40,904 nucleotides of DNA from a virus. Each line of letters begins with the position of its first letter. Within the stretch, counting starts at the first letter, position 1. The notes below the pieces were generated by a model. The model did not search any database. It worked only from the letters and a program-made list of their open reading frames with translations, and was not told where the DNA came from. Made by a program: the position numbers and the translations under genes. Below, in pieces: positions 13,058-40,294 of the stretch. Location: positions 1 to 40,904 of IMG/VR virus record IMGVR_UViG_3300043446_001778, one strand, 5' to 3'.

Positions 13058-14073
13058 TAGAGATTTCTATAAATGTCCAAGAGCAATCTACTGTCAAATT
13101 GATTGCTTTCGATATTTGTAATTTGATTGGTAACAATTTGATCTACACTTTCAAATGCCACATTGCCTTGAATAGCGTATTCTTCAAGATTAACATTCTT
13201 TTGGGGAATCAGTGTAATTTCACGCAGACTGTGACTCTGCATATAAGTTTCTTTGATAAAGTTAGCTTCTTCGTAACTGATATCTATATCAATATTTACC
13301 CTCACATGCATTTTGGGTTTAAGGATCTTGTCTGCGTGATCTAAAATAGCACCCAGCCCCAATACACGATAAGTGGGTTGATCTGGCCAAGCATGAAACT
13401 CGGGTTCCTTGCCCCATTCCAGTACAGTTAGGCCACGCTCGTCGTCATCTGCATCCGCATAATTATGCGGGAAACAGTTGCCAATGTAAGTAATATTTTT
13501 GTGTGTTTGTCGTTTATGAAAGTGTCCAGTAAACACATGTTCAATGTTACTGAAACTTTCTCGTTTTAGTTCACCGTGGTCTGGCATCTGTACCATGGCA
13601 TTCATATAAAAGTGCGGCAGTTCAAAATGCCCAAACACATACTTGCCTTTTAGTTTAGGTATCTGTTTATGATCGTCGCCTACCAACCATGGGGCAATAA
13701 CAACGTTACCACTGTTAAACCAATCATTGCAAATATGGATGTTAGGTAAATGTCTTGCCCATTCAACGCTTTGGATGTCTCTCTTATCGCGATAATAAAG
13801 ATCGTGATTGCCAGGAATAAAGTAAACATTGGAAAAATTGGCGTTGAGATGCTCAAGAGCCCTAAGGCTATAGTTAAGCGTAACAATATTAATGCTAGCA
13901 CGATTATTATGCCAGTCACCCAAAAATAACGCTGTGTCACAGTTTAACTCCTTGGCTTTTTCGGTAGCCCATTTGACAAAAGCCAAACAATCCTCGTTGT
14001 GAACTTGACTATTGGACTTTAGTCCAAAGTGAATATCTGTAAAGATTGCGGCTCGTTTGAATAAATTAGACAT
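13057..14073 (-). CDS. 47: Recombination endonuclease nuclease subunit, T4 gp47 (Mre11-like)
   Basis: A 338-residue calcineurin-type metallophosphoesterase, partner of gp46. The metal-binding motifs appear in order: D13-x-H15 in FTDIHFG, GDWH at 52-55, GNHD at 88-91, GHF at 148-150 and GHFH at 183-186. The C-terminal 100 residues are the capping and gp46-binding region. Length is close to T4 gp47 (339). The ATG at 14073 has no clear ribosome-binding site. It follows the gp55-like gene by 46 bases and overlaps gp46 by one base, giving the T4 order 55-47-46. Confidence 0.97.
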   Translation of the reverse strand: MSNLFKRAAIFTDIHFGLKSNSQVHNEDCLAFVKWATEKAKELNCDTALFLGDWHNNRASINIVTLNYSLRALEHLNANFSNVYFIPGNHDLYYRDKRDIQSVEWARHLPNIHICNDWFNSGNVVIAPWLVGDDHKQIPKLKGKYVFGHFELPHFYMNAMVQMPDHGELKRESFSNIEHVFTGHFHKRQTHKNITYIGNCFPHNYADADDDERGLTVLEWGKEPEFHAWPDQPTYRVLGLGAILDHADKILKPKMHVRVNIDIDISYEEANFIKETYMQSHSLREITLIPQKNVNLEEYAIQGNVAFESVDQIVTNQITNIESNQFDSRLLLDIYRNL

Positions 14074-21747: not shown

Positions 21748-24700
21748 ATGGCCAATACCACACGACAAAGCAGTTTGTTAGTCAATCAAGACTGGACAAA
21801 AATTTACGAAAGTTTTAAAAACGCTGACTTTCAAAGTTACGATTTTCAAACTTTGCGTAAAGCAATGATTGATTACTTGCGTTTTTATTATCCCGAAGAT
21901 TTTAATGACTATACAGAAAGTAGTGAATACATTGCACTGATTGACCTTATTGCGTTTTTGGGTCAAAACCTAGCTTTTAGAAATGATTTAAACACAAGAG
22001 AAAACTTTATAGACACTGCCGAACGAAGAGACAGTGTGCTCAAGCTAGCAAAACTGGTCAGTTACAATCCTAAAAGAAACACCGCTGCATCGGGATTCCT
22101 AAAGTTTGACAGCGTACAAACAACAGAAACAGTTATTGATGCCAATGGTACAGACTTGTCTAATACTATTATCAAATGGAATGACACCACAAATATTGAT
22201 TGGTTTGAACAGTTTGTTACTGTACTAAATGCCAGCTTCCCCACTAGCCAAAACTTTGGAAAACCTGGAAATAGTCAAACTATTGCAGGCATAAAGAACG
22301 AAGAATATGGAGTCAGCATTGCACCAGGTGCGTCATCAGTATTACCATTTCAGTCAATTATCGACTCCACAACTTTTAACTTTGAAGCTGTAAGTGCTAC
22401 CAGTATTAATCAAAGTTACATTTATGAAGCAGGACCTGCATCTGGCGGACTGTTTAATATTTTATATAGAAATGATAATCGCGGCAACGGCAGCAATAAC
22501 ACAGGATTCTTTTTTTATTTTAAACAAGGTCAACTTCAAAATCAGCAGTTTACTGTAAATGAAAAAATTCCTAATAATTTAATTTCAGTTAATTACGATA
22601 ATATTAATAACACAGATGTGTGGCTTTATCAATTAAACAATGTAGGAACTATAAGTCAGTTATGGAACTCTATTCCCAGCGTGTCCAGTTATAATGTAAT
22701 TTATAATAATGGCGCTCCCAAAACCAGCTACCAAGTTAACAGCAGAGCAAACGATCAAATTGATTTAGTTTTTGGCGATGGCACTTTTGCTGACATGCCA
22801 TTTGGTAACTTTAGATGCTACTTCAGAGTCAGTGCAGGTTTAACTTATAAAATTACTCCCGACGAACTACAAGGTATTGAAATTAGAATTCCTTATGTAA
22901 GTCGTAGAGGACGATTAGAAACACTAACAATAGTTGCTAGTTTGAAAACAACAGTTGTCAATGCTATCGCAAGAGACGCATTGGCCGATATTAAAAGCAA
23001 AGCCCCACAACAGTACTATAGTCAAAATAGAATGATTACAGGTGAAGACTATAATACTTTTCCTTATAGTCAATTCAACAGCCTAAGTAAAGTCAAAGCA
23101 GTTAACCGAGTTAGCAGTGGAACTAGCAGATATTTAGATGTTGTTGATAATACTGGTAGATACAGCAGCACGAATATCTATTGTGACGACGGTATTCTTT
23201 ATAAAGAAACAGCAGAAAGCACATTAAGTTTTACTTGGAGTACTACCAGTGACATTAACAAGGTAATTCAAAATCAAATATTACCCATTGTCCGAGGAAA
23301 GCCTTTACTGCAATTTTACTATGAATATTTCAATAGATTTAATCTAAGTAACTTGTACTGGAATCGCAGCACAGTGGGCTCAGGAAGTTGTACAGGATAT
23401 TTTGTTGACTCATCGGGTGTACCACAACAGATAGGAGCCAATGTAACTGGCAATAATGTCTACATGAATCAAGACAGCATTATTATTTTTAGTCCGGGCA
23501 CAGGCAATTATTTTGACAGCAGTAACAATATCCAACCTATACCAACATCTGGCATTCCCTTAAATGGTAATCAATATCTGTATATTACTATTACAAGCTT
23601 AGTAGGAAATGGCAGTCAAGGCGTGTTGTCTACGGGCTTGGGCCCAGTTGCATTAAGTGATAATGTACCTTCCGATGCACAGGCAATCACAGTGTTACCT
23701 GCTTTTAGCAATAGTTTTACAAACAGTTTCCAAGCAACACTGATCGGCTTGATTTCTTCTTATACAGAGTTTGGTATAAGATACGATCAGTTTACAAGAA
23801 CCTACAAAATTATCACAGCGCAAGATATTGATTTAACTAGTGATTTTAGTCAAACAAACCAAGGCGACACAGCTGGTCTTAACAGAGACAGCAGTTGGCT
23901 TCTAAGTTTTACTCTTAATGGAACTATTTACAGCGTTCAGTCTAGAGGACTGGGCTATGTTTTTGAAAGTGTAGCCCAGACAAAATTTTACTTTGATAAA
24001 AACACAAAGATTTTTGATCCGGTTACTGGAAAAACTGTCAATGACTTTGTGAATGTTTTGAAAGTTAACGGAGATCCAGACACAGGCGAACCTTTAACCA
24101 ATAATATCTATTGGTATGTATATGATCAGGTTGCAGAGGCGGATGGTTTTGTAAATGGCAGCAAAGTTCAAGTTACTTATAGCGATATAAATGATGATGG
24201 TGTTCCAGATAATCCTGATATTTTTAATTTAATTGTTCAGCCTTTAGTTGATCCTACAAACAAGTATGTGTTTTTTGTAAAAACTTACGGCTACGACAGT
24301 TTTATTACATATACACCCATACCAGCTTCTAGTGTAGTTACTACATTTGCTACTCAAGCAGCACTATTGCCTAATATCAACAATTATCCTTCGGGACAAA
24401 TTTTTTATACTACAACTGAAGGCAGTTTTTATATTTCTACAGTCACTTCAACCAGTTCATCCATAACTGAAAGCACAGATTATATTGCAAGAGTCGGTAG
24501 AGAATCATTGAATTTCCAATACAGACACAATGCTCCAGGTAACAATAGAATTGATCCAAGTCCAAACAACTTGATTGACATGTATGTGCTAACTAAAAAC
24601 TATGAAGATTCATACAGAGCTTGGGTGCAAGACACTACAGGCACAGTAACAGAACCTACAAAACCTAACAGCGAAGAATTAAGATTAACTTATCAAAGTT

Positions 24701-25149
24701 TGGAAAATTATAAGAGTGTTAGTGATGCAATAATTTATAGCAGTGCTAGTTACAAACCTTTGTTTGGTGCAAAAGCTAGCCCTGAGTTACAGGCCACATT
24801 TAAGGTAGTGAAGAATACCAATACTGGAATAACGGACAGTGAACTACGAAGCAGAATTTTAAGCTACATCAATAATTTCTTTGCAACTGCTAACTGGGAC
24901 TTTGGTGAAACTTTTTATTTTACTGAGTTGGCTACTTATATTCAACAAAGCATGACACCTTATGTCAGCAGTATTATTATTGTTCCTAACAGCAGTAATC
25001 AAGTATATGGTAGTTTGCAGCAAATAACCAGCTTGCCAAATGAAATTTTGATTAGTGCAGCAACAGTAGATAATATTGAAATTATTAGTTCTATTACAGC
25101 AGCACAATTAAACCTACAAAATTCTGTGGTAAATACTATTATTAACTAA
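21748..25149 (+). CDS. 6: Baseplate wedge protein, T4 gp6 family, enlarged
   Basis: A 1133-residue protein; T4 gp6 is 660. The N-terminal 110 residues are typical of the family: DWTKIYESFKNADFQSYDFQ, MIDYLRFYYPEDFNDYTESS, EYIALIDLIAFLGQNLAFRN, then DLNTRENFIDTAERRDSVLK and YNPKR. Around residues 330-450 there is the ring-forming DLVFGDGTFADMPFGNFR and later DIKSKAPQQYYSQNRMITGE, the baseplate J-like core. The last 110 residues, from LRSRILSYINNFF to the end, give the C-terminal dimerisation region (TPYVSSIIIVPNS). gp6 forms the inner ring of the baseplate. The extra length lies mainly in the beta-rich middle, about residues 480-950. The giant gene starts eight bases after its stop. Confidence 0.93.
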   Translation: MANTTRQSSLLVNQDWTKIYESFKNADFQSYDFQTLRKAMIDYLRFYYPEDFNDYTESSEYIALIDLIAFLGQNLAFRNDLNTRENFIDTAERRDSVLKLAKLVSYNPKRNTAASGFLKFDSVQTTETVIDANGTDLSNTIIKWNDTTNIDWFEQFVTVLNASFPTSQNFGKPGNSQTIAGIKNEEYGVSIAPGASSVLPFQSIIDSTTFNFEAVSATSINQSYIYEAGPASGGLFNILYRNDNRGNGSNNTGFFFYFKQGQLQNQQFTVNEKIPNNLISVNYDNINNTDVWLYQLNNVGTISQLWNSIPSVSSYNVIYNNGAPKTSYQVNSRANDQIDLVFGDGTFADMPFGNFRCYFRVSAGLTYKITPDELQGIEIRIPYVSRRGRLETLTIVASLKTTVVNAIARDALADIKSKAPQQYYSQNRMITGEDYNTFPYSQFNSLSKVKAVNRVSSGTSRYLDVVDNTGRYSSTNIYCDDGILYKETAESTLSFTWSTTSDINKVIQNQILPIVRGKPLLQFYYEYFNRFNLSNLYWNRSTVGSGSCTGYFVDSSGVPQQIGANVTGNNVYMNQDSIIIFSPGTGNYFDSSNNIQPIPTSGIPLNGNQYLYITITSLVGNGSQGVLSTGLGPVALSDNVPSDAQAITVLPAFSNSFTNSFQATLIGLISSYTEFGIRYDQFTRTYKIITAQDIDLTSDFSQTNQGDTAGLNRDSSWLLSFTLNGTIYSVQSRGLGYVFESVAQTKFYFDKNTKIFDPVTGKTVNDFVNVLKVNGDPDTGEPLTNNIYWYVYDQVAEADGFVNGSKVQVTYSDINDDGVPDNPDIFNLIVQPLVDPTNKYVFFVKTYGYDSFITYTPIPASSVVTTFATQAALLPNINNYPSGQIFYTTTEGSFYISTVTSTSSSITESTDYIARVGRESLNFQYRHNAPGNNRIDPSPNNLIDMYVLTKNYEDSYRAWVQDTTGTVTEPTKPNSEELRLTYQSLENYKSVSDAIIYSSASYKPLFGAKASPELQATFKVVKNTNTGITDSELRSRILSYINNFFATANWDFGETFYFTELATYIQQSMTPYVSSIIIVPNSSNQVYGSLQQITSLPNEILISAATVDNIEIISSITAAQLNLQNSVVNTIIN

Positions 25150-25157
25150 TAAAAACA

Positions 25158-28100
25158 ATGCCGGTAACTAAAACCTATCCTTTTCTACCAACACAGTTTC
25201 AAAGTGAAACAAACAAAAAGTTCCTAAACGCAACTTTAGATCAACTTGTAACTGAACCAAATTTAAAGCCTATAAGTGGTTTTGTAGGAAGAAAATTTAG
25301 TCCGGGTAATAATGATATTAATTCATATATAAGAGAGCCCAGTGCAAGTAGAGCAAATTATCAACTTGAACCCGGTATTGTCCAGCGAAACCAAACAACT
25401 AATGAAGTTGAATTTGCAATCGCATATCCTGAATTTTTACAACAAATAAATTATTTCAACGGTAACATTGCCGACCCAAATAAACTGTTCAGTAATGACT
25501 ACTATTCTTATACACCATATATTGATCCCGATAAGTTTGTAAACTTTGGAGAATACTACTGGCTACCCGACGGACCAGCCGCAGTTAATATTTTTGCCAA
25601 TGTAACAGAGCTTGAAAAAACTTACTTTGTTAATTTAAATGCCAACAGACAAATTGTTTATTTTAATAAATTTAACACTGTAAAGAATCCTATAATAACA
25701 TTAACAAGAGGCAGTGTATATCATTTTACTGTGGATCAAACAGGACACGATTTTTGGATTCAAACAGATTCCGGGACCAGTGGAGTTCAAACTAACAATA
25801 ATAATTTGTCTAGTAGACAAATATTTGGTGTAACTAACAATGGCACAGATGTCGGCACCGTAACTTTTAATGTTCCTTTACAAAGTGCTCAAGATCAATT
25901 TACCAGCATGCCTATTTTTCAAAATGTTGATCTTGCAACTACATTAAATTATAGTCAAATTCAAGGACAATTAGTTTCGGATGTAGTTGATGCGTATGGC
26001 GGTATAGACGGTCAAAGAAATAACCTAAATGGAAAGTATTTAATTTTTACATCGAACAGCACAAACGATGCAGATTGGACAGCAAACGCTGTAACTGTTC
26101 CTACAAATCAAAGATACGGCATTTGGCTTATTAATGTAACTGTTGTGGGCGGCAATTCTTATTTTGATTTAGTGTTTCAAGCAGCCTTACCTGTAAACAA
26201 TAGAGTTTTGATTGCTTCGGGTGTAGACTATGGAAACACTCAGTGGTATACTAACGCCAGTTATCAAATTACACAAGTACCAGTTATAACAGCCAATCTT
26301 GACACATTGTATTATCAAATTGGCGATTTGTCTGATGCTTATGGTATCATTAAAATTGCTGATGCAGGCAGCAATATAATTGATGTTGAAACAGAAATTT
26401 TAAATCAACAACAGTATCAAAGTCCCAACGGCGTTATTTTTAGCAATGGACTAAAAGTAAAATTTGATTCTTATGTAACTCCGGCTAGCTATCAAAATAA
26501 AGAATACTATGTAGAAGGGGTTGGAACAGCTATCAGTTTAGTTGCTGTAGACAATTTAATTTTTAGCCCTACGCAGGTCACCAGCACCTATACTCCTGTA
26601 ACAGGTTTTACAGACAGTGCCAGTGCTAATATAAGTGCAGGTAAAGATCAACTAACAATCACTTCTAATGTCAGCCCAAGCCAAACACTTATTGGAACAT
26701 TTCCAAATAACAATAATTCAAACGCATTAATTACACAAAACTTAGAATTTAATTATCCTTATAGAGGCGGCCAAAATACGCAAGGGGATCATGCTAGTCT
26801 TGCTTACGAGCGCGGCCCGATTGGTATAAGTTTAGTAGGTATTCCTCTGTATGGTACCGTAAATGGTTGGTCAGTGCCTGGTCTTAATGGAACTACTTGG
26901 AATTTAGTATCATCAGAGGCTAAAGTGAATGGAGAAGACATCTACGGTGGTACTGTTAACAGTAATGGCTTGTACTATTATGAAGACAGTAATTTTATCA
27001 CAGCTAATGCTTGGGGAAATGTTACAGGATTTACCGGCGGTTATACGCAAACAGACGGCCATAGTAAAATTATAGGTTTTGCTGCAGACGGATATCCAAT
27101 TTACGGACCTTTTGGTTACCTAAGTCCTCAAGACAGCAGTAGCCCTACAGTTCGCATGTCTAGTTCTTATCAAAGCAATAACACAGGTGACAATAGACCA
27201 CCAGCTGTTACAGTTACTTTAACTGCTAATACTACAGCCAATAGTTATATAACTGTTGCTAGTACATTTGGTTTGAATCCAGGCATGCGTGTTACTGTTA
27301 ACAGTGCAGGTTTAACAGCAAACCAATATTGGATTGAAAATGTTGGATTAGCAACAGCAACAGGTCCAGCAAAATTTCCTGGTGGAACTAATCAAATTCA
27401 ACTTAATGCAAATGTTACAGTAACAAAAGATGCAACAATAACTTTTGAATATCTATCTGGGGTATTTGTGGAAGATTGGTCTTATGTGCAAGGTTCAGGA
27501 ACACTAGATCAATACAATGGAAGATATTGTGTAACACCTGAATTTCCTAACGGCACTTACGCTTATTTCTGTACACAAAATATATCCAATCAACCTGTTT
27601 ATCCTTACTTTGTAGGTAGAGCTTTTTATGGCAGCATATTTGTAAATCCAATTACTGCATTAGCTGACCCCGACTATTTAACTATAAACAGAAGCAGTAT
27701 TGACCTTAATGCTTGGAGTAGAAGAAATCGCTGGTTCCACAAAGACATTGTACTCCAGACTGGAATCTACAATGGTAAAACTTATGAATTAGATTCCAAT
27801 CATAAAGCAAAAAGGCCTATCATTGAATTTGATCCCAGCTTACAACTATATAACTTTGGTAAGGTAGCTAAATTACCTGTCGACATATTTGACACAACTA
27901 CAACCCAGCCTTTCCTTACTGTAGAAGGTTCTGCAGGTGTTTATCTAGATCAAACATTCTTGTCTGAAGGCATGCGTGTTATTTTTGCTGCCGACCAAGA
28001 TCCTACAACTAGAAACAAAATTTGGCAAGTAACTTATATCGATCAAGATGCTAATGTTGTTACACCTAAAATAATTCATTTAGTCGCCGCTATAGATTCT

Positions 28101-31100
28101 ACGGTGAATGAATACGAAACTGTTGCTGTATTCAGCGGGGTTAACAACGGTGGTAAAACTTTCTGGTTCGACGGAACAAATTGGATAGAAGGACAATCTA
28201 AAACTTCTATTAATCAAGCTCCTCTTTTTGATGTGTTTGATTCAGCAGGTGACAGTTTAAGCAATAGAACAAAATATCCTATCAGTAACAGTGCTCTAAG
28301 TTTCAATGGCACAAAATTATTTGCTTATGTTGAAGGTACGGGTAGCAATGATGCTGTATTAGGTTTTCCTTTAAGTTATCAAAGTTTTAATAATATCGGC
28401 GACATAAAGTTTGAAAATCATTTTGCCACTGACACATTTACATATACCATTGACAAAGTAAATTATACAAACCCTATTAATATAGGATATTTGCATAAAA
28501 ATAATTCGTTGACTAGCTATGATCTTTTGAACACCTGGAAGTCAATTGATCATGCTAGTAAACAATATCAATTGTTTAGTTTTATCTATGACGGAATTGA
28601 TAATTTATTCAATATAGATATCGTTCCAAATGCAAATGTAGTCGATAATAATTTGTTTGTTTTTGCAAATTTCAAACAAATACCTACCAGTAGATACAGA
28701 ATATATTCTATACCAGGTAATAATCGTCAAATATGGATTGATCCTACAGTTATACAAGAAAACGATAGAATTACTGTAAGAGTTTACAGTGACTCTATTA
28801 GTACAACTGCTTTCTACGAAGTTCCAGATAATCTCAATAATAATTTATTAAATGCTAATTTTTCCAATGGTACGCTAGGTGATCTTAGAAATCATTATCA
28901 AGCAACTACTCAAGATAACTTAGATTTTATTGGTTCATTCCCTGGTGTTAGCAATCTGCGCGACTTAAATGTTAAACCTAACGCAGGCAAAATTTTACAA
29001 CATGCTGCACCTTTAAGCTATGCAATGATGTTTCTTACCAACGAACAATACGATTTTGTTAAATCGGTAAGTTTTGCTGAACAAGAATATCAAAAATTTA
29101 AAAATAAATTTTTATCTTTGGCTGAAACCGGTAGCAGAGTTACATCTTGGACTACTGCACAGGCAGTAGACAATATTTTATCTAAAATAAATGAATTTAA
29201 AACAAATAAATTTCCTTATTACTATAGCGGTATGGTTCCTTATGGTCCTAATAGGAATGTCATTAACTATACAATATTTGATCCTGCAAAAACCAACTAT
29301 CAAATTTCTGCAATTTTTGACCCAATTGCATTAACTAATAAGGCAGTATTAGTTTATCTAAATGGCAGTCAGTTGCTTTATGGGCACGACTACGCATTTA
29401 GTGCCACTGTTCCTGCTGTTACTTTGTTGGATAATTTAATTCGCTCTGTAAACGACACACTAGTCATATATGAATACTATGATACAGATGGTTCATGTAT
29501 TCCCGAAACTCCTACTAAGCTAGGATTATATCCAAAATTTGATCCACAAATAATTTTAGATACAACATATTCAACACCACAAAGTTTTATTCGTGGGCAC
29601 GATGGTAGTCTAACTCCTGTATATAATGATTTTAGAGATGATCTTCTATTAGAATTAGAAAGAAGAATTTATAACAATATTAAAGTTAATTTTGATAACA
29701 AAGTTATTGACATTTATAAAGCTAAACCAGGTAAGTTTAGAACAAGTGATTTCACAGTCGCTGACTATACAAGATTAGTAGCTGAAAATTATTTGCCGTG
29801 GGTAGGATATAATAGATTAAATTATACAGACAATACAATTTATGATGTAACAGACCCATTTACCTACAACTACAACACTTGCCCAGACACATTAGACGGC
29901 GAACTTCTGCCAGGATCATGGCGTGCTTGCTACGAATATTATTACGATACACAACGACCTAACACTAATCCATGGGAAATGTTAGGCTTTAGCGAAGAAC
30001 CAGACTGGTGGCAAACCACCTATGGCCCAGCACCTTACACTTCTGGTAACCAAATATTATGGGATGATTTAGAAGCTGGTTTTATAGCTGCTGGCGTACG
30101 ACAGGGCTATGACACAAGATTTGCCCGTCCCGGCCTATCAAATTATATTCCAGTAGATGCCAACGGCAATTTAAAACCACCGTTAGGTTTAATGACCGTA
30201 AACTTCAGCAATCAAAAGTTTAACAATAATTGGACAATTGGTCAATATAGTCCAGTGGAAAATGCTTGGAGAAATAGCAGTAATTACCCATACGCAGTTC
30301 AAATAATATTGGCCTTGACAAATACTGCAAGTTATTTTGCTGAAGGTGCTTGTGTTAACAAAATTACCTACGATAGCACCTTAAATCAATTTATTAACAA
30401 AGAAACAAATCAACGATTAGTACAGTCAGATGTTGTGATTAATGGTTATAACTATGCAACAAAGACTGTGGACAGAAGTGCCAGTTATATAAATTACATA
30501 GCTGATTATTTGACTAGCCAAGGTATTAAAGATCATACTGATTTACAAGATTTTGTCCAACACTATCAAGTAAACTTAATTTATCGAATGGCTGGGTATA
30601 CTAACAAAAATTCTTTAAAAGTTTTAGCTGAACAAAACAGTCCTGCCAGTATTAACGAATCTATTATAATTCCTGACAGCAACTTTGATTTAATTCTTAA
30701 TAAATCAACCCCATTGTTTGCTGTTAGATATAGTGCAGTTGTAATTGAAAAAGTTTCCAGTGGTTTTAAGATCAGTGGTTATGATAACGAAAGTCCTTAT
30801 TTTAATATCATCTTACCTGAAACTAACAATACTCAAAATGCCGTTGATATTATATCAGGAACTTTGAAAGTAAACTGGTATCAAAAGTTCAGAGCAGTAA
30901 GAGCTAGCGTACCATACGGGACTATACTTTCAGACTTACAGCAAGTTGCTAATTTCCTAGCAGGATATGAACAGTATCTAAAACTTCAAGGTTTTATTTT
31001 TGAAGATTTTGATCAAAGCTTAGGCCAAATTCGTAATTGGCAATTGAGCATGCAAGAATTTTTGTTTTGGGTAAAACAAGGGTGGGCAGCAGGCAGTGTG

Positions 31101-34100
31101 ATTATTCTAAGTCCTGTTTCATCTACTATAAGTTATTTTAATCCTACGGCTGTTGCAGACAGTTTAACAAATAGCTATACTGGCAGTAAAGTGCAGACTC
31201 AAAACTGGAAAATCCTTACCAGCAAAGACTATACAATTAATAGAGACAGCAACAACGGAAATATATTCCAACTGACCTTAAATAATAATCAAGATTTAAT
31301 TGCGTCATTGAATTTTGACTTAGTGCAATATGAACATGCTTTAGTGTTCAATAATGTAACAGAGTTTAATGATGTAATTTATACACCAGAAACAGGACAA
31401 AGACAGTATAAATTAAAATTAGTAGGACAAAAAACTACAGCATGGACTGGCGCATTGAATCCTCCAGGATTTATATATGCAACTAAACAAATAGCCACTT
31501 GGAATCAAAACACTGATTATCTAAGAAGCGACTTAGTTGAATACAAGGGTTTTTATTACACCGCCAAAGAAAATATTGCAGGCAGTGAAACTTTTGATTT
31601 TACAAAGTGGTTACCTGAACCTACCAGCAGCATTAAGTCGGGTTTATTAGAAAATTACGCTACCAAAGCTAAAAAAGCAATAGGATTCTACGATACAGAT
31701 AAAGTTAATTTAGAATCAGATGAAGACGGTCTTGCTTTTAGTTTAATTGGGTACAAAAATAGAAACTACTTGTCAGATCTGGGTATAACAGATACTAGTC
31801 AAATAAAATTTTATCAAGGCTTTATTAAACAAAAAGGTACAGTGGATGCGCTAAATGCATTCGCCAATATTACAGTTAACAACGAAAGTACAAATGTCAC
31901 AATAAGCGAAGATTGGGCGTTTAGAGTAGGCGCATACGGTGCCACTGATATTAATAGATATGTTGAACTGTTACTAGAAGAACAATATATTCTTAATAAT
32001 CCAAGCAGTCTAGAAGTTGCTACCAATAATTCTGTTGTTTATAATTCTTTAAATTCTAGCAGCATGGGCTTATATGATTACAGCACTGCCACATTTAGCA
32101 GCCCGTTCCTGTTGAATAGAACTGAAAATTCTACTAGAACAGATGATATTAAAACAGCAGGATATGTTAATATAGACGATGTAGACTTTACAGTTTACGA
32201 TCTAAATGACTTATCTACTTTAAATGGTGACATTAACAAAATAAATGTTGGATCTATTATTTGGACAGCAAAAAATTATAACAATGATTGGGACGTTTAC
32301 AAGATAAGTTCAAATGCTGTTAAAGTTTTAAGTATAAAAAATTCTCTAAACAGTAATGTCACAATTAATACAGCAACTCCACACGGATATAATTTAGACG
32401 ACACTGTAATTTTAACCAATACTAGTAAGTTTGATGGTTTTTACAGAGTGTTGTCAATAGTCGATGCTTATAATTTCACAGTTAAAGTAACTTTAAATTT
32501 AACTGGGTTTACTTCAACTTCGTTTGCTGACCCTGCTTCAAGTTATCTATTAGAAAGCCAACGAGTTACATACGCTTCACAAATTTATGATATGGCAAAT
32601 GCAACTTCTTGGTTAGCCAATAATAAAGTGTGGGTAGACAGCAGTACCAATGACACTTGGGCGGTTTATGAAAAATCTGAACCTTGGCTTGCTAACATAC
32701 AACTACAAAAGAGTCAATATACCAGTAATGGTAAATTTGGACAAAGTTTGAAGATAAGCAATGACAACAATTTTGCATTGGTGGGAGAACCAGGAGCTAA
32801 TAATGGTAAAGGAACAATTACCAATTATGTTCTAGGATTTGACAATAACTTTGTTGAAGATATTACAGTAAGTCCTGGCGCAGTAAACACCTTAGGGTTT
32901 GGCTCTAGTTTAGATACAGGTAAAGAACATTTAGTAATCGGTGCGCCCGACAGTAGTTCTGGAGTTGGTTATGCTTATATTTACAGACGAAACTTTTTAG
33001 GAACAATATCTGAAACACAGATTTTAGCTCCTCAATCTGTTGGAGTTGAAGCATTTGGTACTAGTGCAATAATTAGTAACGACGACGCATGGATTTATAT
33101 CGGAGCATCGGATGCAAATAAAGTGTACGCATATGGATACTATGATGCAGCAGAAAGTCAAAGTACAACACTAACAGCAGATTTAGGTAATGTAAGCTAC
33201 AGCCTAAGCTTTACACCAGTTACGACAGAATTACTAAGTGTAAGGGGCTCAGTATATTCTTATGTTCCTTTTGTTGATTTTACCGTCAGTGGGTCAACTA
33301 TTACTTTTAATACACCAGTTGCTGATACAATTGTAGTAAGACAAACTCCAGGTTATGTTTATGTTGACACTATTTCGTTCGCTAATAGTAACAGCAACTT
33401 TGGTCAATCTATTGCACACACTACAGATGGTAGACAGATAGCTGTGGGAGCTCCAGCAGACAATAGTTCAGCAGGAACAGTTACACTTTACGATAGAAGT
33501 GTTGAGAATTTTATCAGTATTGCTAATCAAACATTATTCGGTGGAGTAAGAACACTGGGACTAGTTCATAAAGTTTATGTGAACAATGTCTTGCAAGAAC
33601 AAGGAACAGATTATGTAATTGTTGCGTCTAATTGGGTTCAATTGACAACAGCACCACAAGCCGGTTCAATTGTAACTATAGAAACTAATCAATTTAATAA
33701 GATTATCACAGTTACAGCAGATCAGCAACAGGCAAAAAGTCAGTTTGGTTATGATTTAGATATATGTCCTAATAATTGCAGCCTGTACATAGGTGCACCA
33801 TATTATACTGACGGTACTAATTTTAATGTAGGTACAGCTTATAGATCAATTAATCAAAGTAGAATATACGGAACTATAATTGGCACAATACAAAATCCAA
33901 CCGTGACTGGCGGAAATAGCATAAGGTTAAATGATTATGAAGTATCTTTTTCTGGTACTAGTTTAACTGATGTTGTGAATGCCATTAACAATGCTAATGT
34001 ACCCGGTGTCACAGCACAGGATGTAAATGGTTACCTACAGCTTAATTCTGACAGTGTCATATCAACTAATAAACTAACTATACTACCCGGAGTAGGCACT

Positions 34101-37100
34101 GCCATCACAGATTTAGGATTGAAAGTTTTTGTTCAGTCTGAACAAATTAAAAATCCAACCAACAACGCATACGACCAATTTGGTTATAGTGTAAGAATTG
34201 ACAGCACAAGTGAAATTTTAGCAGTTGGAGGCCCAACTGCTAGAACACTAACTGCTACCAGCTTTGACATTTATTCAACACTTTTGTCAAATTCTCAAAC
34301 GCTGTTTGGTACAGAATATGTTACAAATCCTCGCGGTCCGGTAAGTGAAATGGCTACATCATTCGACGGCAACAGCACCAGATTTGTAGATAAAGTTAAG
34401 AGCGGTGCAGTTTGGATACTAAGTTATTTGCCTGACAGTAGACAGACTATATCACATCCTGGTAAATTCATGTATGTCCAACAGTTGAATCCCAGCAACT
34501 TAAGCATTGCTCTTGTACCTAATGTAAGTTTTGGTGTTAGTGTTGATATCAGCAATTACAAGATTTTAGTTGGGGCATCAACAGACAGTTTATTTGCCTT
34601 AAACGGCGGAACTGTTTATAAATTTAACGATGTTGATAGATTAAATGGTTGGGATATTATTAGATCCCAAGACGACAAAGTTGATATAGACGGAATTATC
34701 AAGGGCTATGTCTATAACAATGAAACACAGATAATAATTGACCATTTGGATTATATTGATCCTGCAAAAGGAAAAATACTAGGACAAGCTGAACAAGAAA
34801 TCACATATAAAGTGGATTATGATCCTGCGGTCTATAACAACAGTTCGACTGCTTCCTTAAAAACTAGCTCAACATTATATTGGGGTCAACCTCAAGTTGG
34901 TCAGGTATGGTGGGATTTAAGCGCAATTAGATACCTAGAATACGAGCAGGATACTATTAAATATAGAACTGCTAACTGGGGCAGAAGCTTCCCAGGCAGC
35001 AGCGTAGATGTGTATGAATGGGTACAAAGTTTGTATCCTCCTGGCCAGTATGTTCAAACTGGGGGCAACGGAATTCCTAAATATCTAGATGATAACTATG
35101 TAACTGAAAGCTATGTTGATCCAATTACCAACATACCTAATGTCTACTATTATTTCTGGGTAAAAGACAAAACAGTAACTCCAACTTATGTACCTAATAG
35201 AAATATACCTATAATAACAATCGCTCAATATATAAGAGATCCAAAGAATTCTGGAATCAAGTATTTTGCTGCTATAAAAGATAACGCTGTAGCAATTTAT
35301 AATGTAAACAATGATACTGTAGGAGATAAAATAGTATTTCATTTAGATTATGCTAAAGAAATTAATTCAAGCATTATTCACAGTGAATATGCCCTACTAA
35401 GCGAAAAGGCAGAAAACAGTAACAGCATTCCTACAAGTATATACAACAAGCTAGTAGACAGCGTGTCTGGACTAGATGCTGTTGGTAATGTTGTGCCGGA
35501 CGCAACTTTACCAGTTGCTAAACGATACGGCATTGAAATAAGACCTCGTCAAAGCATGTATATTGACAAAAACATGGCTGTAGAGCAGATGGTAACATTT
35601 GTGAACAGTGTGTTTGCTACCACAACATTCGCTCAAAGCTTTGACCTAACAAATCTAAGTGCAGGCGAACCAATTCCTCCTGCTGACAGTGGATTTTGGG
35701 ATATCAGCGTTAGTACATTTACTGAATTAGGATATATCGATATCTACACAAAACCGGTGGGCTACAAAGTTTTGGTTGTCAATAATAGTGAAATTGATAA
35801 TTTGTGGACCATTTATGTCAAAGACACAGCAGTCATTGTATGGACAGCAAATACTGCATATACAAAAGGTCAAATAATTTCCTATGAAAACACTGCTTAT
35901 GTAGTGACTGCCGATTTTACTAGCGGCACAAGTTTTAATACAGTAAATCTTGATTTATATACTGTGAAAAATAACTGGCTGTTATACCAAGTACAAACTT
36001 ATAAAACAAGTGATTACTGGACTACTGTTGATTGGTATGCAAGTTATTTCGATCCTACTACACAACCCAACTATACCTTTAACACAACCGCAGACATGGT
36101 TAACACTAGATTCAAGTCTGGTGATGTAGTTAAGATTTTAAACAATGGTTCTGGTAAATGGATGCTATTGCAGATATTCGCTAACACCAGTGTAATGGTT
36201 GGCCTGCAAGATGGTACAATTGAACTTAGCACATCTTTGTACGATACTGCTACCAATGGGGTTGGCTTCGGCAATGATAATTTTGATATTAACAGATTCG
36301 ATCAAAACCCTAGTATAGAACTAAGAAAAATCATCGAAGCATTAAAGGATGATTTGTTTATTAATCAATATAGTCAAGACTTTGTAAAATTGTTCTTTGT
36401 ACTAATTAACTATGTACTTGAAGAACAAAAATCTGTAGATTGGGTGTTTAAAACCAGCTTCATTAATGTCTTGCATAAGATTAGAGGGTTAACTCAACCT
36501 GAAATTTACTACAGAGAAAACCAAACTTACTATCAGCAGTACCTAGAAGAAGTAAAACCATTCCATACTACAATAAAAGAGTATGTGTCTGACTACACAG
36601 GATCTGACAACTATAACGGTTATACTACAGACTTTGATGTACCAGCTTATTACGATCCAGTGTTAAAGGTATACAGAAGTCCTAGCGGTGATTATGCTCA
36701 GGATGTAGCAGCACTGCAACAACCACAGTACGCAGATTATGTAAACAACAACTGGTATGAAATTCAAGAGATAGTAATATCGGATGGTGGTTCAAATTAC
36801 ACTGTAGCACCTACCATTGTAATTAGCGGTAGCTCTATTGGAGACAATGCATTGGCAACACCTATATTAGCCAACGGACAAATCGTTAAAGTACAAGTAT
36901 TGTATCCAGGAAGTTATTATTATAGCCAACCCGTTATCACATTAAGTGGTGGTAACGGTTCAGGCGCAAGATTGTATGCTCGATTAGTTAATAATACAAT
37001 TAGAAAAATTAAAGCTACACTGACCTATGATAGATATACATATGGATCTACTGTAGTAGAATGGTTGCCAAATACCACTTATACTGCGGGTACTATACTT

Positions 37101-38540
37101 ACATATAAGAACATTGCCTATGTTGTTAATACAACATTTACCAGCGGCACTACATTTAACGGCAATTATCTAACAGTATACGCCGCTAATAATTTTAACA
37201 CAGCTAACGACAGGATTGTAGCTTATTATGCTCCGACAGTTGGTATGCCAGGAAAAAATCCTGCACTACTACAAAATGGGATAAGTTATCCTGGGGTAAC
37301 CGTAGAAGGAGCATTATTCACAGATGCTGGAGGATTTGATGTCGCGGCATTTGACACAGATTATTTTGATGCTTTAACACTAGATTCCGACGGAACTTAT
37401 GTTATAAGCGATACAATTTTAGATACAAAAATTGAAAGTTTATTTACAGATACCAGCCTGGGTCTAAGACCAGAAGACATTATAGTCGATGGGGATGGAT
37501 TCGTAACTCCCAATACCAGTCATGCTCCTGAAGAATTAATTCCAGGCAGAGTCTACGATACTTTAGATCTTACAGTATCTACACTTGAAACTTTAGAAGA
37601 TTCTAATTATACTTCATGGCTTACTGGTACAGCATTCTATGTAAATGAAATTGTAGTTGTAGACGGAGGATCCGGTTACACAGCTAATGCCGCTATTACA
37701 ATTTTAGGTAATACTGGTGTTGGGGCAAGCGGAACCTTAAATGTTGATGCCAACGGCAAAATAACCAGTATAACACTTACTGCTAGCGGGTCCCAGTATA
37801 CTACAATTCCAAATGTTACAGTTGCTAATACAGCAGCCAATGCCAATTTGACATTTAATACTGCAACCCTTACAGCAAGATTGGCCCAAAACACCTACGA
37901 TGTGTTTAGTTATAGAATGTTCAAAGATATGAATGATAATTGGACTTACCTGCGTGAAGATTCTGCTGCTACAACAACCCTAGCTACAAATTTATCATTG
38001 ACCAGCAATACTATTACAGTAGCTAATTCTGCGGTGTTATCAACTCCTAATCCAGCAATGAATTTGCCCGGTGTTGTTTATATCAACGGCGAAAGAATTA
38101 CTTACTTTACTAAAAATGATGGCACTAACACCCTGGGCCAATTAAGAAGGGGTACTTTAGGTACTGGAGCAAATATACATTATGCAGGAGATACAGTTGT
38201 AAGTGGCAGTATTAATCAAATAGTTCCTGATAGTTACCATATGGCCAATACATTTACAACAAATACTCAACTACAAATGACCAATAGCATTTACCGTGAT
38301 TTCTACGCTGGCCAAACTTATATTCAGGCTAATTTGTGGTTAAACGGCGGTCTTGCGGCAGTACCACTAGCAGCAGAATTTACATTAAGCGCCAATGTAG
38401 ATATTCCATTCATTACTAGTGAATCTAATATTGGGTTAGAAACAGATCAAGCTACTACTCCGATTCAAACCGATGGTAGGGGATTATACGCTAGTAACAA
38501 GATTCAAGCACTTTTTGTTAAGAAGCAGCTAGGGGCATAA
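25158..38540 (+). CDS. Giant 4460-residue multidomain baseplate/tail protein in the gp7-gp10 position
   Basis: A single uninterrupted frame of 13.4 kb directly after gp6. Visible modules, by residue: 165-225 cupredoxin-like (NPIITLTRGSVYHFTVDQTG); 550-675 YHYH-like domain with GHSKIIGFAADGYPIYGPFG; 780-830 NGRYCVTPEFPNGTYAYF; 2115-2152, 3561-3604 and 3969-4014 short W-x-x-N-T-x-Y repeats like carbohydrate-binding modules; 2525-3158 seven FG-GAP-type blades; 2920-2968 a flagellin-hook-IN-like insert; about 3780-3830 helical segment with YLEEVKPFHTTIKEYV; 3874-3945 and 4167-4243 GGSxYT repeats. It takes the place of T4 gp7 to gp10, so a baseplate-periphery or host-binding role is inferred; no direct gp7 or gp8 match was recognised. 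No ribosome-binding site is seen at the ATG; translation is probably coupled to gp6. Codon use looks like its neighbours. Confidence 0.9.
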   Translation: MPVTKTYPFLPTQFQSETNKKFLNATLDQLVTEPNLKPISGFVGRKFSPGNNDINSYIREPSASRANYQLEPGIVQRNQTTNEVEFAIAYPEFLQQINYFNGNIADPNKLFSNDYYSYTPYIDPDKFVNFGEYYWLPDGPAAVNIFANVTELEKTYFVNLNANRQIVYFNKFNTVKNPIITLTRGSVYHFTVDQTGHDFWIQTDSGTSGVQTNNNNLSSRQIFGVTNNGTDVGTVTFNVPLQSAQDQFTSMPIFQNVDLATTLNYSQIQGQLVSDVVDAYGGIDGQRNNLNGKYLIFTSNSTNDADWTANAVTVPTNQRYGIWLINVTVVGGNSYFDLVFQAALPVNNRVLIASGVDYGNTQWYTNASYQITQVPVITANLDTLYYQIGDLSDAYGIIKIADAGSNIIDVETEILNQQQYQSPNGVIFSNGLKVKFDSYVTPASYQNKEYYVEGVGTAISLVAVDNLIFSPTQVTSTYTPVTGFTDSASANISAGKDQLTITSNVSPSQTLIGTFPNNNNSNALITQNLEFNYPYRGGQNTQGDHASLAYERGPIGISLVGIPLYGTVNGWSVPGLNGTTWNLVSSEAKVNGEDIYGGTVNSNGLYYYEDSNFITANAWGNVTGFTGGYTQTDGHSKIIGFAADGYPIYGPFGYLSPQDSSSPTVRMSSSYQSNNTGDNRPPAVTVTLTANTTANSYITVASTFGLNPGMRVTVNSAGLTANQYWIENVGLATATGPAKFPGGTNQIQLNANVTVTKDATITFEYLSGVFVEDWSYVQGSGTLDQYNGRYCVTPEFPNGTYAYFCTQNISNQPVYPYFVGRAFYGSIFVNPITALADPDYLTINRSSIDLNAWSRRNRWFHKDIVLQTGIYNGKTYELDSNHKAKRPIIEFDPSLQLYNFGKVAKLPVDIFDTTTTQPFLTVEGSAGVYLDQTFLSEGMRVIFAADQDPTTRNKIWQVTYIDQDANVVTPKIIHLVAAIDSTVNEYETVAVFSGVNNGGKTFWFDGTNWIEGQSKTSINQAPLFDVFDSAGDSLSNRTKYPISNSALSFNGTKLFAYVEGTGSNDAVLGFPLSYQSFNNIGDIKFENHFATDTFTYTIDKVNYTNPINIGYLHKNNSLTSYDLLNTWKSIDHASKQYQLFSFIYDGIDNLFNIDIVPNANVVDNNLFVFANFKQIPTSRYRIYSIPGNNRQIWIDPTVIQENDRITVRVYSDSISTTAFYEVPDNLNNNLLNANFSNGTLGDLRNHYQATTQDNLDFIGSFPGVSNLRDLNVKPNAGKILQHAAPLSYAMMFLTNEQYDFVKSVSFAEQEYQKFKNKFLSLAETGSRVTSWTTAQAVDNILSKINEFKTNKFPYYYSGMVPYGPNRNVINYTIFDPAKTNYQISAIFDPIALTNKAVLVYLNGSQLLYGHDYAFSATVPAVTLLDNLIRSVNDTLVIYEYYDTDGSCIPETPTKLGLYPKFDPQIILDTTYSTPQSFIRGHDGSLTPVYNDFRDDLLLELERRIYNNIKVNFDNKVIDIYKAKPGKFRTSDFTVADYTRLVAENYLPWVGYNRLNYTDNTIYDVTDPFTYNYNTCPDTLDGELLPGSWRACYEYYYDTQRPNTNPWEMLGFSEEPDWWQTTYGPAPYTSGNQILWDDLEAGFIAAGVRQGYDTRFARPGLSNYIPVDANGNLKPPLGLMTVNFSNQKFNNNWTIGQYSPVENAWRNSSNYPYAVQIILALTNTASYFAEGACVNKITYDSTLNQFINKETNQRLVQSDVVINGYNYATKTVDRSASYINYIADYLTSQGIKDHTDLQDFVQHYQVNLIYRMAGYTNKNSLKVLAEQNSPASINESIIIPDSNFDLILNKSTPLFAVRYSAVVIEKVSSGFKISGYDNESPYFNIILPETNNTQNAVDIISGTLKVNWYQKFRAVRASVPYGTILSDLQQVANFLAGYEQYLKLQGFIFEDFDQSLGQIRNWQLSMQEFLFWVKQGWAAGSVIILSPVSSTISYFNPTAVADSLTNSYTGSKVQTQNWKILTSKDYTINRDSNNGNIFQLTLNNNQDLIASLNFDLVQYEHALVFNNVTEFNDVIYTPETGQRQYKLKLVGQKTTAWTGALNPPGFIYATKQIATWNQNTDYLRSDLVEYKGFYYTAKENIAGSETFDFTKWLPEPTSSIKSGLLENYATKAKKAIGFYDTDKVNLESDEDGLAFSLIGYKNRNYLSDLGITDTSQIKFYQGFIKQKGTVDALNAFANITVNNESTNVTISEDWAFRVGAYGATDINRYVELLLEEQYILNNPSSLEVATNNSVVYNSLNSSSMGLYDYSTATFSSPFLLNRTENSTRTDDIKTAGYVNIDDVDFTVYDLNDLSTLNGDINKINVGSIIWTAKNYNNDWDVYKISSNAVKVLSIKNSLNSNVTINTATPHGYNLDDTVILTNTSKFDGFYRVLSIVDAYNFTVKVTLNLTGFTSTSFADPASSYLLESQRVTYASQIYDMANATSWLANNKVWVDSSTNDTWAVYEKSEPWLANIQLQKSQYTSNGKFGQSLKISNDNNFALVGEPGANNGKGTITNYVLGFDNNFVEDITVSPGAVNTLGFGSSLDTGKEHLVIGAPDSSSGVGYAYIYRRNFLGTISETQILAPQSVGVEAFGTSAIISNDDAWIYIGASDANKVYAYGYYDAAESQSTTLTADLGNVSYSLSFTPVTTELLSVRGSVYSYVPFVDFTVSGSTITFNTPVADTIVVRQTPGYVYVDTISFANSNSNFGQSIAHTTDGRQIAVGAPADNSSAGTVTLYDRSVENFISIANQTLFGGVRTLGLVHKVYVNNVLQEQGTDYVIVASNWVQLTTAPQAGSIVTIETNQFNKIITVTADQQQAKSQFGYDLDICPNNCSLYIGAPYYTDGTNFNVGTAYRSINQSRIYGTIIGTIQNPTVTGGNSIRLNDYEVSFSGTSLTDVVNAINNANVPGVTAQDVNGYLQLNSDSVISTNKLTILPGVGTAITDLGLKVFVQSEQIKNPTNNAYDQFGYSVRIDSTSEILAVGGPTARTLTATSFDIYSTLLSNSQTLFGTEYVTNPRGPVSEMATSFDGNSTRFVDKVKSGAVWILSYLPDSRQTISHPGKFMYVQQLNPSNLSIALVPNVSFGVSVDISNYKILVGASTDSLFALNGGTVYKFNDVDRLNGWDIIRSQDDKVDIDGIIKGYVYNNETQIIIDHLDYIDPAKGKILGQAEQEITYKVDYDPAVYNNSSTASLKTSSTLYWGQPQVGQVWWDLSAIRYLEYEQDTIKYRTANWGRSFPGSSVDVYEWVQSLYPPGQYVQTGGNGIPKYLDDNYVTESYVDPITNIPNVYYYFWVKDKTVTPTYVPNRNIPIITIAQYIRDPKNSGIKYFAAIKDNAVAIYNVNNDTVGDKIVFHLDYAKEINSSIIHSEYALLSEKAENSNSIPTSIYNKLVDSVSGLDAVGNVVPDATLPVAKRYGIEIRPRQSMYIDKNMAVEQMVTFVNSVFATTTFAQSFDLTNLSAGEPIPPADSGFWDISVSTFTELGYIDIYTKPVGYKVLVVNNSEIDNLWTIYVKDTAVIVWTANTAYTKGQIISYENTAYVVTADFTSGTSFNTVNLDLYTVKNNWLLYQVQTYKTSDYWTTVDWYASYFDPTTQPNYTFNTTADMVNTRFKSGDVVKILNNGSGKWMLLQIFANTSVMVGLQDGTIELSTSLYDTATNGVGFGNDNFDINRFDQNPSIELRKIIEALKDDLFINQYSQDFVKLFFVLINYVLEEQKSVDWVFKTSFINVLHKIRGLTQPEIYYRENQTYYQQYLEEVKPFHTTIKEYVSDYTGSDNYNGYTTDFDVPAYYDPVLKVYRSPSGDYAQDVAALQQPQYADYVNNNWYEIQEIVISDGGSNYTVAPTIVISGSSIGDNALATPILANGQIVKVQVLYPGSYYYSQPVITLSGGNGSGARLYARLVNNTIRKIKATLTYDRYTYGSTVVEWLPNTTYTAGTILTYKNIAYVVNTTFTSGTTFNGNYLTVYAANNFNTANDRIVAYYAPTVGMPGKNPALLQNGISYPGVTVEGALFTDAGGFDVAAFDTDYFDALTLDSDGTYVISDTILDTKIESLFTDTSLGLRPEDIIVDGDGFVTPNTSHAPEELIPGRVYDTLDLTVSTLETLEDSNYTSWLTGTAFYVNEIVVVDGGSGYTANAAITILGNTGVGASGTLNVDANGKITSITLTASGSQYTTIPNVTVANTAANANLTFNTATLTARLAQNTYDVFSYRMFKDMNDNWTYLREDSAATTTLATNLSLTSNTITVANSAVLSTPNPAMNLPGVVYINGERITYFTKNDGTNTLGQLRRGTLGTGANIHYAGDTVVSGSINQIVPDSYHMANTFTTNTQLQMTNSIYRDFYAGQTYIQANLWLNGGLAAVPLAAEFTLSANVDIPFITSESNIGLETDQATTPIQTDGRGLYASNKIQALFVKKQLGA
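25650..25830 (+). other. Cupredoxin-like segment in the giant protein
   Basis: Residues about 165-225 read NPIITLTRGSVYHFTV, then QTGHDFWIQTDSGTSG. This is the beta-sandwich pattern seen in cupredoxin-like repeats that often accompany YHYH domains in marine proteins. The metal ligands are incomplete, so a structural rather than redox role is likely. Confidence 0.5.
26800..27180 (+). other. Degenerate YHYH domain in the giant protein
   Basis: Residues about 550-675: GPIGISLVGIPLYG opens the domain, GGTVNSNGLYYYEDSNF occupies the place of the YHYH signature, and GHSKIIGFAADGYPIYGPFG closes it. The naming His residues are replaced (YYYE near residues 606-609), while the scaffold glycines and the DGYPIYG motif remain. 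Confidence 0.7.
32730..34630 (+). other. Seven-bladed FG-GAP-type beta-propeller in the giant protein
   Basis: Seven copies of an FG-x-S ... VGAP pattern occur at about 32736, 32892, 33049, 33395, 33738, 34175 and 34525, for example FGQSIAHTTDGRQIAVGAP and FGYDLDICPNNCSLYIGAP. Seven is the count of a closed integrin-type propeller. The calcium loops of integrins (DxDxDG) are not present, and three to four blades carry long inserts. Confidence 0.7.
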
Positions 38541-38578: not shown

Positions 38579-40294
38579 ATGTCATATATTAAGATTAGTG
38601 AATTACCCAGTTTAGCATCAAGCAATTTGATCAGCTCAAATCTCGCTATTGTACCTGTGGTTTCAGATATTTCTGGAAATAATGTTAGCTATCAAACCAC
38701 TGTTGCTAATATTAAAACTTATGTAGGAACTGGTAATTTAACAGTCACAGGCAATTTAAGTACCGGTGGAGCCATAACTGTTGGGTCTAACTTAACTGTA
38801 ACAGGTAATTTAACTGTCAATGGAAATACAGTCGTTATTGGTTCAAATAATTATGCTACAACAGACAACATAATTGAATTACATTTAGCAAATTTAGCTA
38901 ATACCAGTCAGCCTTGGCTGTCGGATGACGGCAAAGATATTGGTATTAGAATGCACTACTACGATGGTACTAATAAAGATGCTGCTTTGGTTTTTGCCCG
39001 AGATACAAATTATTTAGAGTGGTATGTAAATGGGTCAGAAGGTAATGTAAGTTTTACTGGCAATGTTTATGGTGGATTTAAACCTGGCAGTATCATACTG
39101 GCAAATACCACAGATTCTACTAGTTTAACTACAGGCACACTAGTTTCAAACGGCGGTGCTGCACTGGCAGGCAATTTGCGTACAGGCGGTAATATAGTAG
39201 TGGGAGGTTATGCAAACATAACTGGCAATACAACTACCACAGCTAATATTTCAACAAACGCATCTGTTATTGCTGCTACAATTTTTGCCAACAGCTCATT
39301 TACCACAACTGGGTATGCTTATTTGGGTTATGTTCAAACAACAAATTCAGGAACTTTTGGTTCTACACTTAATGTTCAAGGCACAGCAACTGTAAATGCA
39401 CTAGCATCTAACACAACAGGTACTTTTGGTAGTGGAGTCATTACAACTACATTAAATGCCAATAGCACTGCCACAGTTAACGCATTGACATCAAATGGAG
39501 CAGTTACTGGAACGACAGGAACTTTTGGCACATCTCTTGTAACTGGTACTATTAATGCTAACGGAACTGCTACAGTAAACGCATTAACATCAAATGGAGC
39601 AGTTACTGGCACAACTGGTACATTTACAACCAGCACTACAACATCTACACTGAATACTGGCACATTAAATGCTAATAGTACAGCAACGGTAGCAAGTTTG
39701 ACAGCAAACGGTAATATTACCTTAGGTGGTAACATTATAGATACTGGTGCTTTGGCAATTCAAACCAGTAGCAATGGAAATATTAGATTAGAGCCCAACG
39801 GTACAGGCGTAATTATTGTAACCAAAGATATTATAAATGGCCAATCCAATGGTAGCGGCAATATTGGTTCAAGCACAACTTATTTTAATACTGTATTTGC
39901 CAAAGCAACATCTGCACAGTACGCTGACTTGGCTGAAATTTATCAACCAGACAATTTCTATTATCCAGGCACCGTGCTTGTGTTTGGGGGATCAGCAGAA
40001 GTCACTGTAACAACAAAAGAATCAGACACAAGAGTAGCAGGTGCAGTTAGTACAGATCCAGCATATTTAATGAATGCCAAATCTGACGGTGTCGCAATAG
40101 CCCTAAGAGGAAAAATTCCATTAAAGATTGTGGGTGCAGTAGAAAAAGGTGATTTGTTAGTGACAAGTGCAACAGCAGGCCATGCTACAAGTGTTAAGAA
40201 TTTAGCAAGTTATGATCCAAACGCAGTGTTTGCTAAGAGCATGCAAACAGATTCTGACACTTCGGAAAGAACAATTTGGGCAGTGATTTTATGA
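38579..40294 (+). CDS. Repetitive tail-fibre-like structural protein
   Basis: A 571-residue protein made of Thr, Asn, Gly, Ala and Val-rich repeats. The opening SYIKISELPSL is a common start of phage fibre and appendage proteins. Residues 50-90 hold GNLTVTGNLST-type repeats, and 290-385 hold longer repeats with TATVNALTSNGAVTGTTGTF. The last 130 residues form a different domain beginning QYADLAEIYQPDNFYYPGTV and containing DTRVAGAVSTDPAYLMNA and ALRGKIPLKIVGAVEKGDLL, a C-terminal module I associate with fibre proteins of marine phages. A beta-helical or triple-stranded fibre is likely; whether it is on the tail or the head cannot be told. The stop overlaps a possible downstream ATG (ATGA). 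Confidence 0.8.
   Translation: MSYIKISELPSLASSNLISSNLAIVPVVSDISGNNVSYQTTVANIKTYVGTGNLTVTGNLSTGGAITVGSNLTVTGNLTVNGNTVVIGSNNYATTDNIIELHLANLANTSQPWLSDDGKDIGIRMHYYDGTNKDAALVFARDTNYLEWYVNGSEGNVSFTGNVYGGFKPGSIILANTTDSTSLTTGTLVSNGGAALAGNLRTGGNIVVGGYANITGNTTTTANISTNASVIAATIFANSSFTTTGYAYLGYVQTTNSGTFGSTLNVQGTATVNALASNTTGTFGSGVITTTLNANSTATVNALTSNGAVTGTTGTFGTSLVTGTINANGTATVNALTSNGAVTGTTGTFTTSTTTSTLNTGTLNANSTATVASLTANGNITLGGNIIDTGALAIQTSSNGNIRLEPNGTGVIIVTKDIINGQSNGSGNIGSSTTYFNTVFAKATSAQYADLAEIYQPDNFYYPGTVLVFGGSAEVTVTTKESDTRVAGAVSTDPAYLMNAKSDGVAIALRGKIPLKIVGAVEKGDLLVTSATAGHATSVKNLASYDPNAVFAKSMQTDSDTSERTIWAVIL
39449..39646 (+). repeat. Two tandem 99-base repeats in the fibre gene
   Basis: Units at 39449-39547 and 39548-39646 encode LNANSTATVNALTSNGAVTG and INANGTATVNALTSNGAVTG with matching context. 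Twenty bases around TCAAATGGAGCAGTTACTGG are identical in both, so recent duplication or gene conversion is likely. A shorter related unit lies near 39370-39430. Confidence 0.85.

Follow-up and report, generated by a model that had tools for sequence, protein, structure and literature searches.

A Predicted Integrin-Type FG-GAP Propeller in a Giant, Probably Baseplate-Associated Protein of a Large-Phage Lineage

Gene Content and Domain Map of the Locus

The DNA analyzed here (referred to as the window) is the full 40,904-nt (40.9 kb) virus record IMGVR_UViG_3300043446_001778. It contains a giant ORF encoding a 4460-aa virion structural protein with a phrog_10938 framework, in which residue n starts at nt 25158+3(n-1). 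Directly upstream, separated by 8 bases, is an ORF encoding a gp6-type baseplate wedge subunit (phrog_10646, "baseplate wedge subunit," E = 1e-295), which also has a weak Pfam Gp6-like match, while a downstream ORF (38579-40294) has tail-fibre-type matches. The features relevant to the giant protein are as follows:

21748..25149, + strand: gp6-type baseplate wedge subunit
25158..38540, + strand: giant virion structural protein carrying the propeller
32625..32675, + strand: framework hairpin, first strand(s) (VWVD..TWAVYEKS), present in propeller-less relatives too
32688..34628, + strand: FG-GAP propeller domain (residues 2511-3157), which starts with the probable closing strand (32688-32702)
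32730..32870, + strand: blade 1 (FG motif at residue 2527; strands from the model)
32898..33026, + strand: blade 2 (FG motif at 2581; from the model)
33054..33377, + strand: blade 3 (FG motif at 2633), with an insert (33144-33350) in its 3-4 loop, a DYxVxGxxIxF module
33399..33713, + strand: blade 4 (FG motif at 2748), with an insert (33513-33668) in its 3-4 loop
33744..34151, + strand: blade 5 (FG motif at 2863), with an insert (33855-34127) in its 3-4 loop and a CxNNC turn
34179..34484, + strand: blade 6 (FG motif at 3008), with a low-confidence insert (34233-34400) in its 2-3 loop
34530..34628, + strand: blade 7, strands 1-3 (FG motif at 3125; from the model)
34644..34688, + strand: framework hairpin, returning strand (GWDIIRSQDDKVDID)

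Elsewhere in the window, an SbcC/SbcD-type nuclease pair is encoded on the minus strand (11294-14073), with the portal gene (5589-7298) and the major head protein gene (1378-2562) nearby on the same strand. A scan of the genome contig gave no hint of the host.

A Predicted Calcium-Free Seven-Bladed FG-GAP Propeller

FGxS/FGxD motifs with a GA-type turn after each one occur seven times, at residues 2527, 2581, 2633, 2748, 2863, 3008, and 3125 (nt about 32736-34628), compared to a mean of 0.003 and a maximum of 1 in 2000 shuffles of the same residues. A 700-aa slice matches Pfam FG-GAP_2 (PF14312) at 7.6e-16 in six stretches (58.5 bits vs. a cut-off of 23), and matches the classical FG-GAP family (PF01839) only weakly, with 10.6 bits, below the cut-off of 22.1. 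With a repeat profile whose training set included the window sequence, 7/7 repeats were recovered. The seven FG-GAP repeats claimed in the original prediction are therefore borne out, and so is its claim that calcium loops are missing: direct reading of the seven 1-2 turns (SNDNN, TGKEH, SNDDA, TTDGR, CPNNC, DSTSE, and SNYK, in order) and of the 19-sequence alignment found no DxDxDG loop.

Using this alignment (A1) as input, AlphaFold2 modeled the propeller segment with a pLDDT of 84.3 and a pTM of 0.84, with strand 1 starting at each FG and the GA turn coming after strand 2. When the model was searched against the PDB with Foldseek, the first 32 matches were all integrin alpha chains, with E-values from 1.7e-11 and TM-scores up to 0.60 (9ind_A, normalised to its chain length of 440 aa), and the match spans the whole domain over 720+ alignment columns. 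The RMSDs of these matches are large, mostly 8-11 Å over gapped alignments, as would be expected from the four inserts. The A1 profile also hits integrin alpha-4, with an E-value of 1.5e-5 and a match length of two repeats; a PDB sequence search with the single protein gave no match. Since the matched PDB entries are closed integrin heads, the model strongly suggests a closed seven-bladed ring. By analogy to the integrin arrangement, the N-terminal strand (32688-32702) probably serves as the fourth strand of blade 7.

The same FG and GA words could in principle arise by chance or from composition in a beta-rich protein without any propeller. The shuffles, the Pfam match, the predicted model, the Foldseek matches, and the integrin profile match all contradict this explanation, which we consider exceedingly improbable and rejected on the basis of the model and the shuffle statistics. 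We thus identify residues 2511-3157 as a predicted calcium-free FG-GAP_2 (integrin-alpha-type) seven-bladed beta-propeller, in agreement with the integrin-like propeller originally predicted from the sequence.

Four blades carry long inserts. The original prediction located them correctly by FG spacing and placed them between blades; however, FG-to-FG spacing is the same for in-blade and between-blade inserts, so the secondary structure of the model is needed to distinguish the two, and the model strands put the inserts inside blades 3, 4, 5, and 6. In the integrin convention, the 3-4 loops form the bottom face and the 2-3 loop lies on the top face, which assigns the inserts of blades 3, 4, and 5 to the bottom and that of blade 6 to the top. 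Blades 3 and 4 carry mutually homologous inserts (hhalign 96.5%, E = 7.8e-10), both representing a phage-type DYxVxGxxIxF module; the blade 4 insert also has a sub-cutoff Phage_T7_tail match. The blade 5 insert matches Flagellin_IN, also under its cut-off, and the blade 6 insert is poorly modeled (pLDDT < 50 at model-local residues 598-632). The CxNNC motif that blade 5 has in its 1-2 turn (33765-33779, + strand) is nearly invariant across the family, and is a possible disulphide or metal site of the virion protein.

Insertion Into a Framework Hairpin

The propeller occupies the turn of a framework beta-hairpin. Minimal relatives have a short hairpin (e.g., GWTVYSYINHAWMPVRNEQLKVD) where the window has TWAVYEKS, the propeller, and GWDIIRSQDDKVD, and the phrog_10938 profile matches both propeller flanks, not the propeller itself. 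Framework relatives include proteins of phages RaK2 (ORF070), CBB (CBB_236), PA5oct (gp355), SCTP-2, Vibrio 2.275.O, and Atu_ph07 (gp180), whose alignment to the window protein skips from about residue 2425 to 3153 and resumes on the far side of the propeller. FG-GAP repeats are absent at the site in all of these six, and the propeller-less relatives carry short or unrelated inserts there. For example, Atu_ph07 gp180 (4449 aa; L156:15917-29266), which is near the window protein in length, has a different insert of ~1000 aa without FG-GAP at this site. This position is a hot spot for domain insertions. Taken jointly, the propeller fold and its insertion into the framework are well supported, and we hold them with high confidence.

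Distribution and Evolution of the Propeller

Although a first scan of IMG/VR with the propeller as a single sequence gave no match, a framework scan yielded 69 loci, and a scan with the propeller alignment (A1) yielded 190 relatives, of which 80 were kept. After near-copy removal, 90 insertion sites were read, comprising 68 with the propeller, 15 minimal, and 7 with other inserts, these classes being assigned by a repeat profile trained on 19 members; as an independent check, Pfam FG-GAP_2 matches 34/42 of the more divergent long inserts. A tree built from 89 framework sequences, insert excluded, places all propeller carriers (67/67, window included) on one side of a single branch with 100% support, in a quick search that does not distinguish gain from loss and has long branches outside the carrier clade. 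The propeller-based scan inflates the number of carriers, not their clustering. The propeller was thus probably inserted once, then kept and vertically inherited.

Carriers include jumbo phages, as four of them that were checked are on contigs of 219-354 kb with FG-GAP_2 in only one giant ORF each. With the propeller as the query, no cultured phage record was matched in the phage collection searched; with a bare relative (L023) as the query, the sole cultured match was Sinorhizobium phage Phosso, over 43% at 27% identity. In a sister carrier clade (L030, L032, and L049), the inserts reach 1200-1270 aa, and their FG-GAP propellers are themselves interrupted by very large insertions lying after the second blade and ahead of a later one.

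Across 53 carriers, the identity of the propeller tracks that of the framework (Spearman rho 0.74) and is about 0.1 below it. In eight close pairs, dN/dS of the propeller insert is about 0.05-0.11, ratios that are rough because dS is saturated in most pairs, and its dN is 1.0-2.0 times that of the preceding flank. The propeller is under purifying selection. Its blade 3, 4, and 5 inserts are retained in the 53 carriers with an occupancy of 0.96-0.99, and the blade 5 insert ranks among the best conserved parts. In the 19-row clade of the window, conservation is 0.57 for the propeller, 0.66-0.67 for the framework, and 0.57 for the C-terminal part. Neither the 89-framework tree, the 53 carriers, nor the eight pairs gave any sign of module swapping or hypervariability, and we rejected a fast-evolving swapped module given the single tree branch, the rho of 0.74, and the low dN/dS.

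Location in the Virion

The original prediction of a phage tail protein is supported by the upstream baseplate-wedge gene and by the detection of core relatives in virions. CBB_236, the corresponding framework protein of CBB, was detected in virions (PMC5259590), and PA5oct gp355 is a virion protein by ESI-MS/MS according to its record note. The baseplate-wedge gene is directly upstream in cultured relatives as well, and in 28/42 carriers with enough upstream sequence. Framework profiles found nothing in the PDB above noise beyond a short resemblance to a chitin-binding module, and framework residues 1445-2400, modeled with AlphaFold2 at moderate confidence (pLDDT 70, pTM 0.49), had no global fold match there. 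The baseplate placement therefore rests on gene order and on the proteomics of relatives, from which a baseplate position of the giant protein is likely. The giant ORF shares with the T4 gp7-type wedge protein its position directly after gp6, but neither the framework profiles nor the model matched gp7 in the PDB, and gp7 identity is therefore not claimed.

Possible Functions of the Propeller

We propose that, probably in a single event, the propeller entered the hairpin turn of a giant virion protein associated with the baseplate in large-genome myophages, and that it would project from the framework at that hairpin and be exposed on the virion. Most of the inserts, namely both copies of the common phage beta-module as well as the Flagellin_IN-like module, would decorate the integrin-type bottom face. 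The propeller may then be a permanent, rigid binding platform at the periphery of the baseplate, where a conserved partner would dock. This partner could be another virion protein, e.g., the base of a fibre, or a surface component that is conserved and varies slowly. Stable inheritance favours such a docking or low-specificity platform over a fast-changing host-range head, and we give this reading about even chances; the slightly lower conservation of the propeller compared to the framework is also compatible with host contact.

The receptor-binding head suggested in the original prediction, which would bind a host surface protein or glycan at adsorption, draws on the fact that integrin FG-GAP propellers bind extracellular ligands. 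It would also fit the lack of the propeller in framework relatives with other hosts, the slightly faster divergence of the propeller, and the long, length-variable, poorly ordered top-face loop of blade 6. However, receptor-binding proteins commonly, though not universally, are hypervariable or swap modules between close relatives, whereas here a large clade has a single gain or loss on the tree without swapping, the propeller follows the framework (rho 0.74) with low dN/dS, and the decorations are among the most conserved features. Vertical inheritance together with evolution only slightly faster than that of the framework is atypical for a host-range determinant, and the tail-fibre-type ORF downstream (38579-40294) offers an alternative host-range protein. 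We regard this role as less likely than the docking platform. A purely architectural insert, i.e., a spacer or size-adding baseplate decoration with no specific partner, would explain why the framework works without a propeller in relatives where the site is empty or holds something unrelated. This seems quite unlikely, as the seven blades and matching inserts are kept in 53 carriers under purifying selection, which suggests that a specific surface is maintained. A further, rather unlikely reading is that the baseplate-fixed propeller of this uncultured jumbo-myophage clade serves as a general adhesion device for a conserved host-surface protein or glycan; if true, it would be a phage counterpart of integrin-mediated adhesion.

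Comparison With Known Propellers

The phage propeller shares with the integrin alpha propeller (PDB 9ind_A, 8w30_A, and 3v4p_A) its seven FG-GAP repeats, the best PDB fold match, and a profile match. It differs in that it lacks DxDxDG loops, has four in-blade inserts, is part of a virion protein, and is only about 12% identical. The thigh and calf domains, the membrane anchor, and the beta-subunit partner of integrin alpha have no equivalent here, where the propeller is flanked by the phrog_10938 framework. A calcium-dependent integrin homologue was rejected because of the missing DxDxDG loops, and with the remaining subunit also absent, the protein is not a strict integrin alpha homologue. 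The propeller belongs to the FG-GAP_2 fold family (PF14312, direct match), here as a single insert in a 4460-aa phage framework, and by analogy may work like a binding propeller. The phrog_10938 relatives RaK2 ORF070, CBB_236, PA5oct gp355, and Atu_ph07 gp180 share the framework and lack the propeller at the site.

Similar predicted folds exist among viral FG-GAP proteins in BFVD, the best being A0A6J5L8L4 (uncultured Caudovirales, 24% identity), followed by A0A6J5S3H5 (uncultured Caudovirales), A0A2L0UZX4 ("hemagglutinin" of Atu_ph07), and NCLDV FG-GAP proteins, the Atu_ph07 and giant-virus proteins having at most about 15% identity to the propeller. The related jumbo phage CBB encodes Kelch-type propeller proteins (CBB_550, 552, and 554), of which CBB_552 is in the virion (PMC5259590); these are separate genes of the Kelch type, in contrast to the FG-GAP insert described here. 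With viral FG-GAP propellers in structure libraries and the Kelch-type propellers of CBB, this kind of protein is already known. In the open-access literature searched (a scope excluding subscription papers and preprints), we came across neither a description of FG-GAP propellers in phage virions nor published studies of virions carrying this propeller. What appears to be new, being unreported in that literature, is that a whole clade has the propeller fixed in the same hairpin of a giant baseplate-associated protein. A receptor-type fold familiar above all from the adhesion of animal cells would thereby be permanently built into this protein in a large phage lineage. With the site occurring with the propeller, without it, or with another domain, this is a natural experiment on what a jumbo-phage baseplate framework tolerates and what the propeller contributes.

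Other Domains and Inserts

Unrelated inserts at the propeller site were also observed in L064, L069, L072, L073, and SCTP-2. A second lineage-specific stretch of the giant protein, about residues 150-830, has no alignment to RaK2, CBB, PA5oct, SCTP-2, or the Vibrio phage, and contains a YHYH domain (PF14240, 2e-28; residues 538-701, nt 26769-27260, + strand). Further downstream, residues 3968-3998 (nt 37059-37151, + strand) form a CBM_5_12-like motif of the chitin-binding type, just under the Pfam cut-off. Similar motifs are repeated in relatives, in some cases inside propellers, and Foldseek also detects one in the framework.
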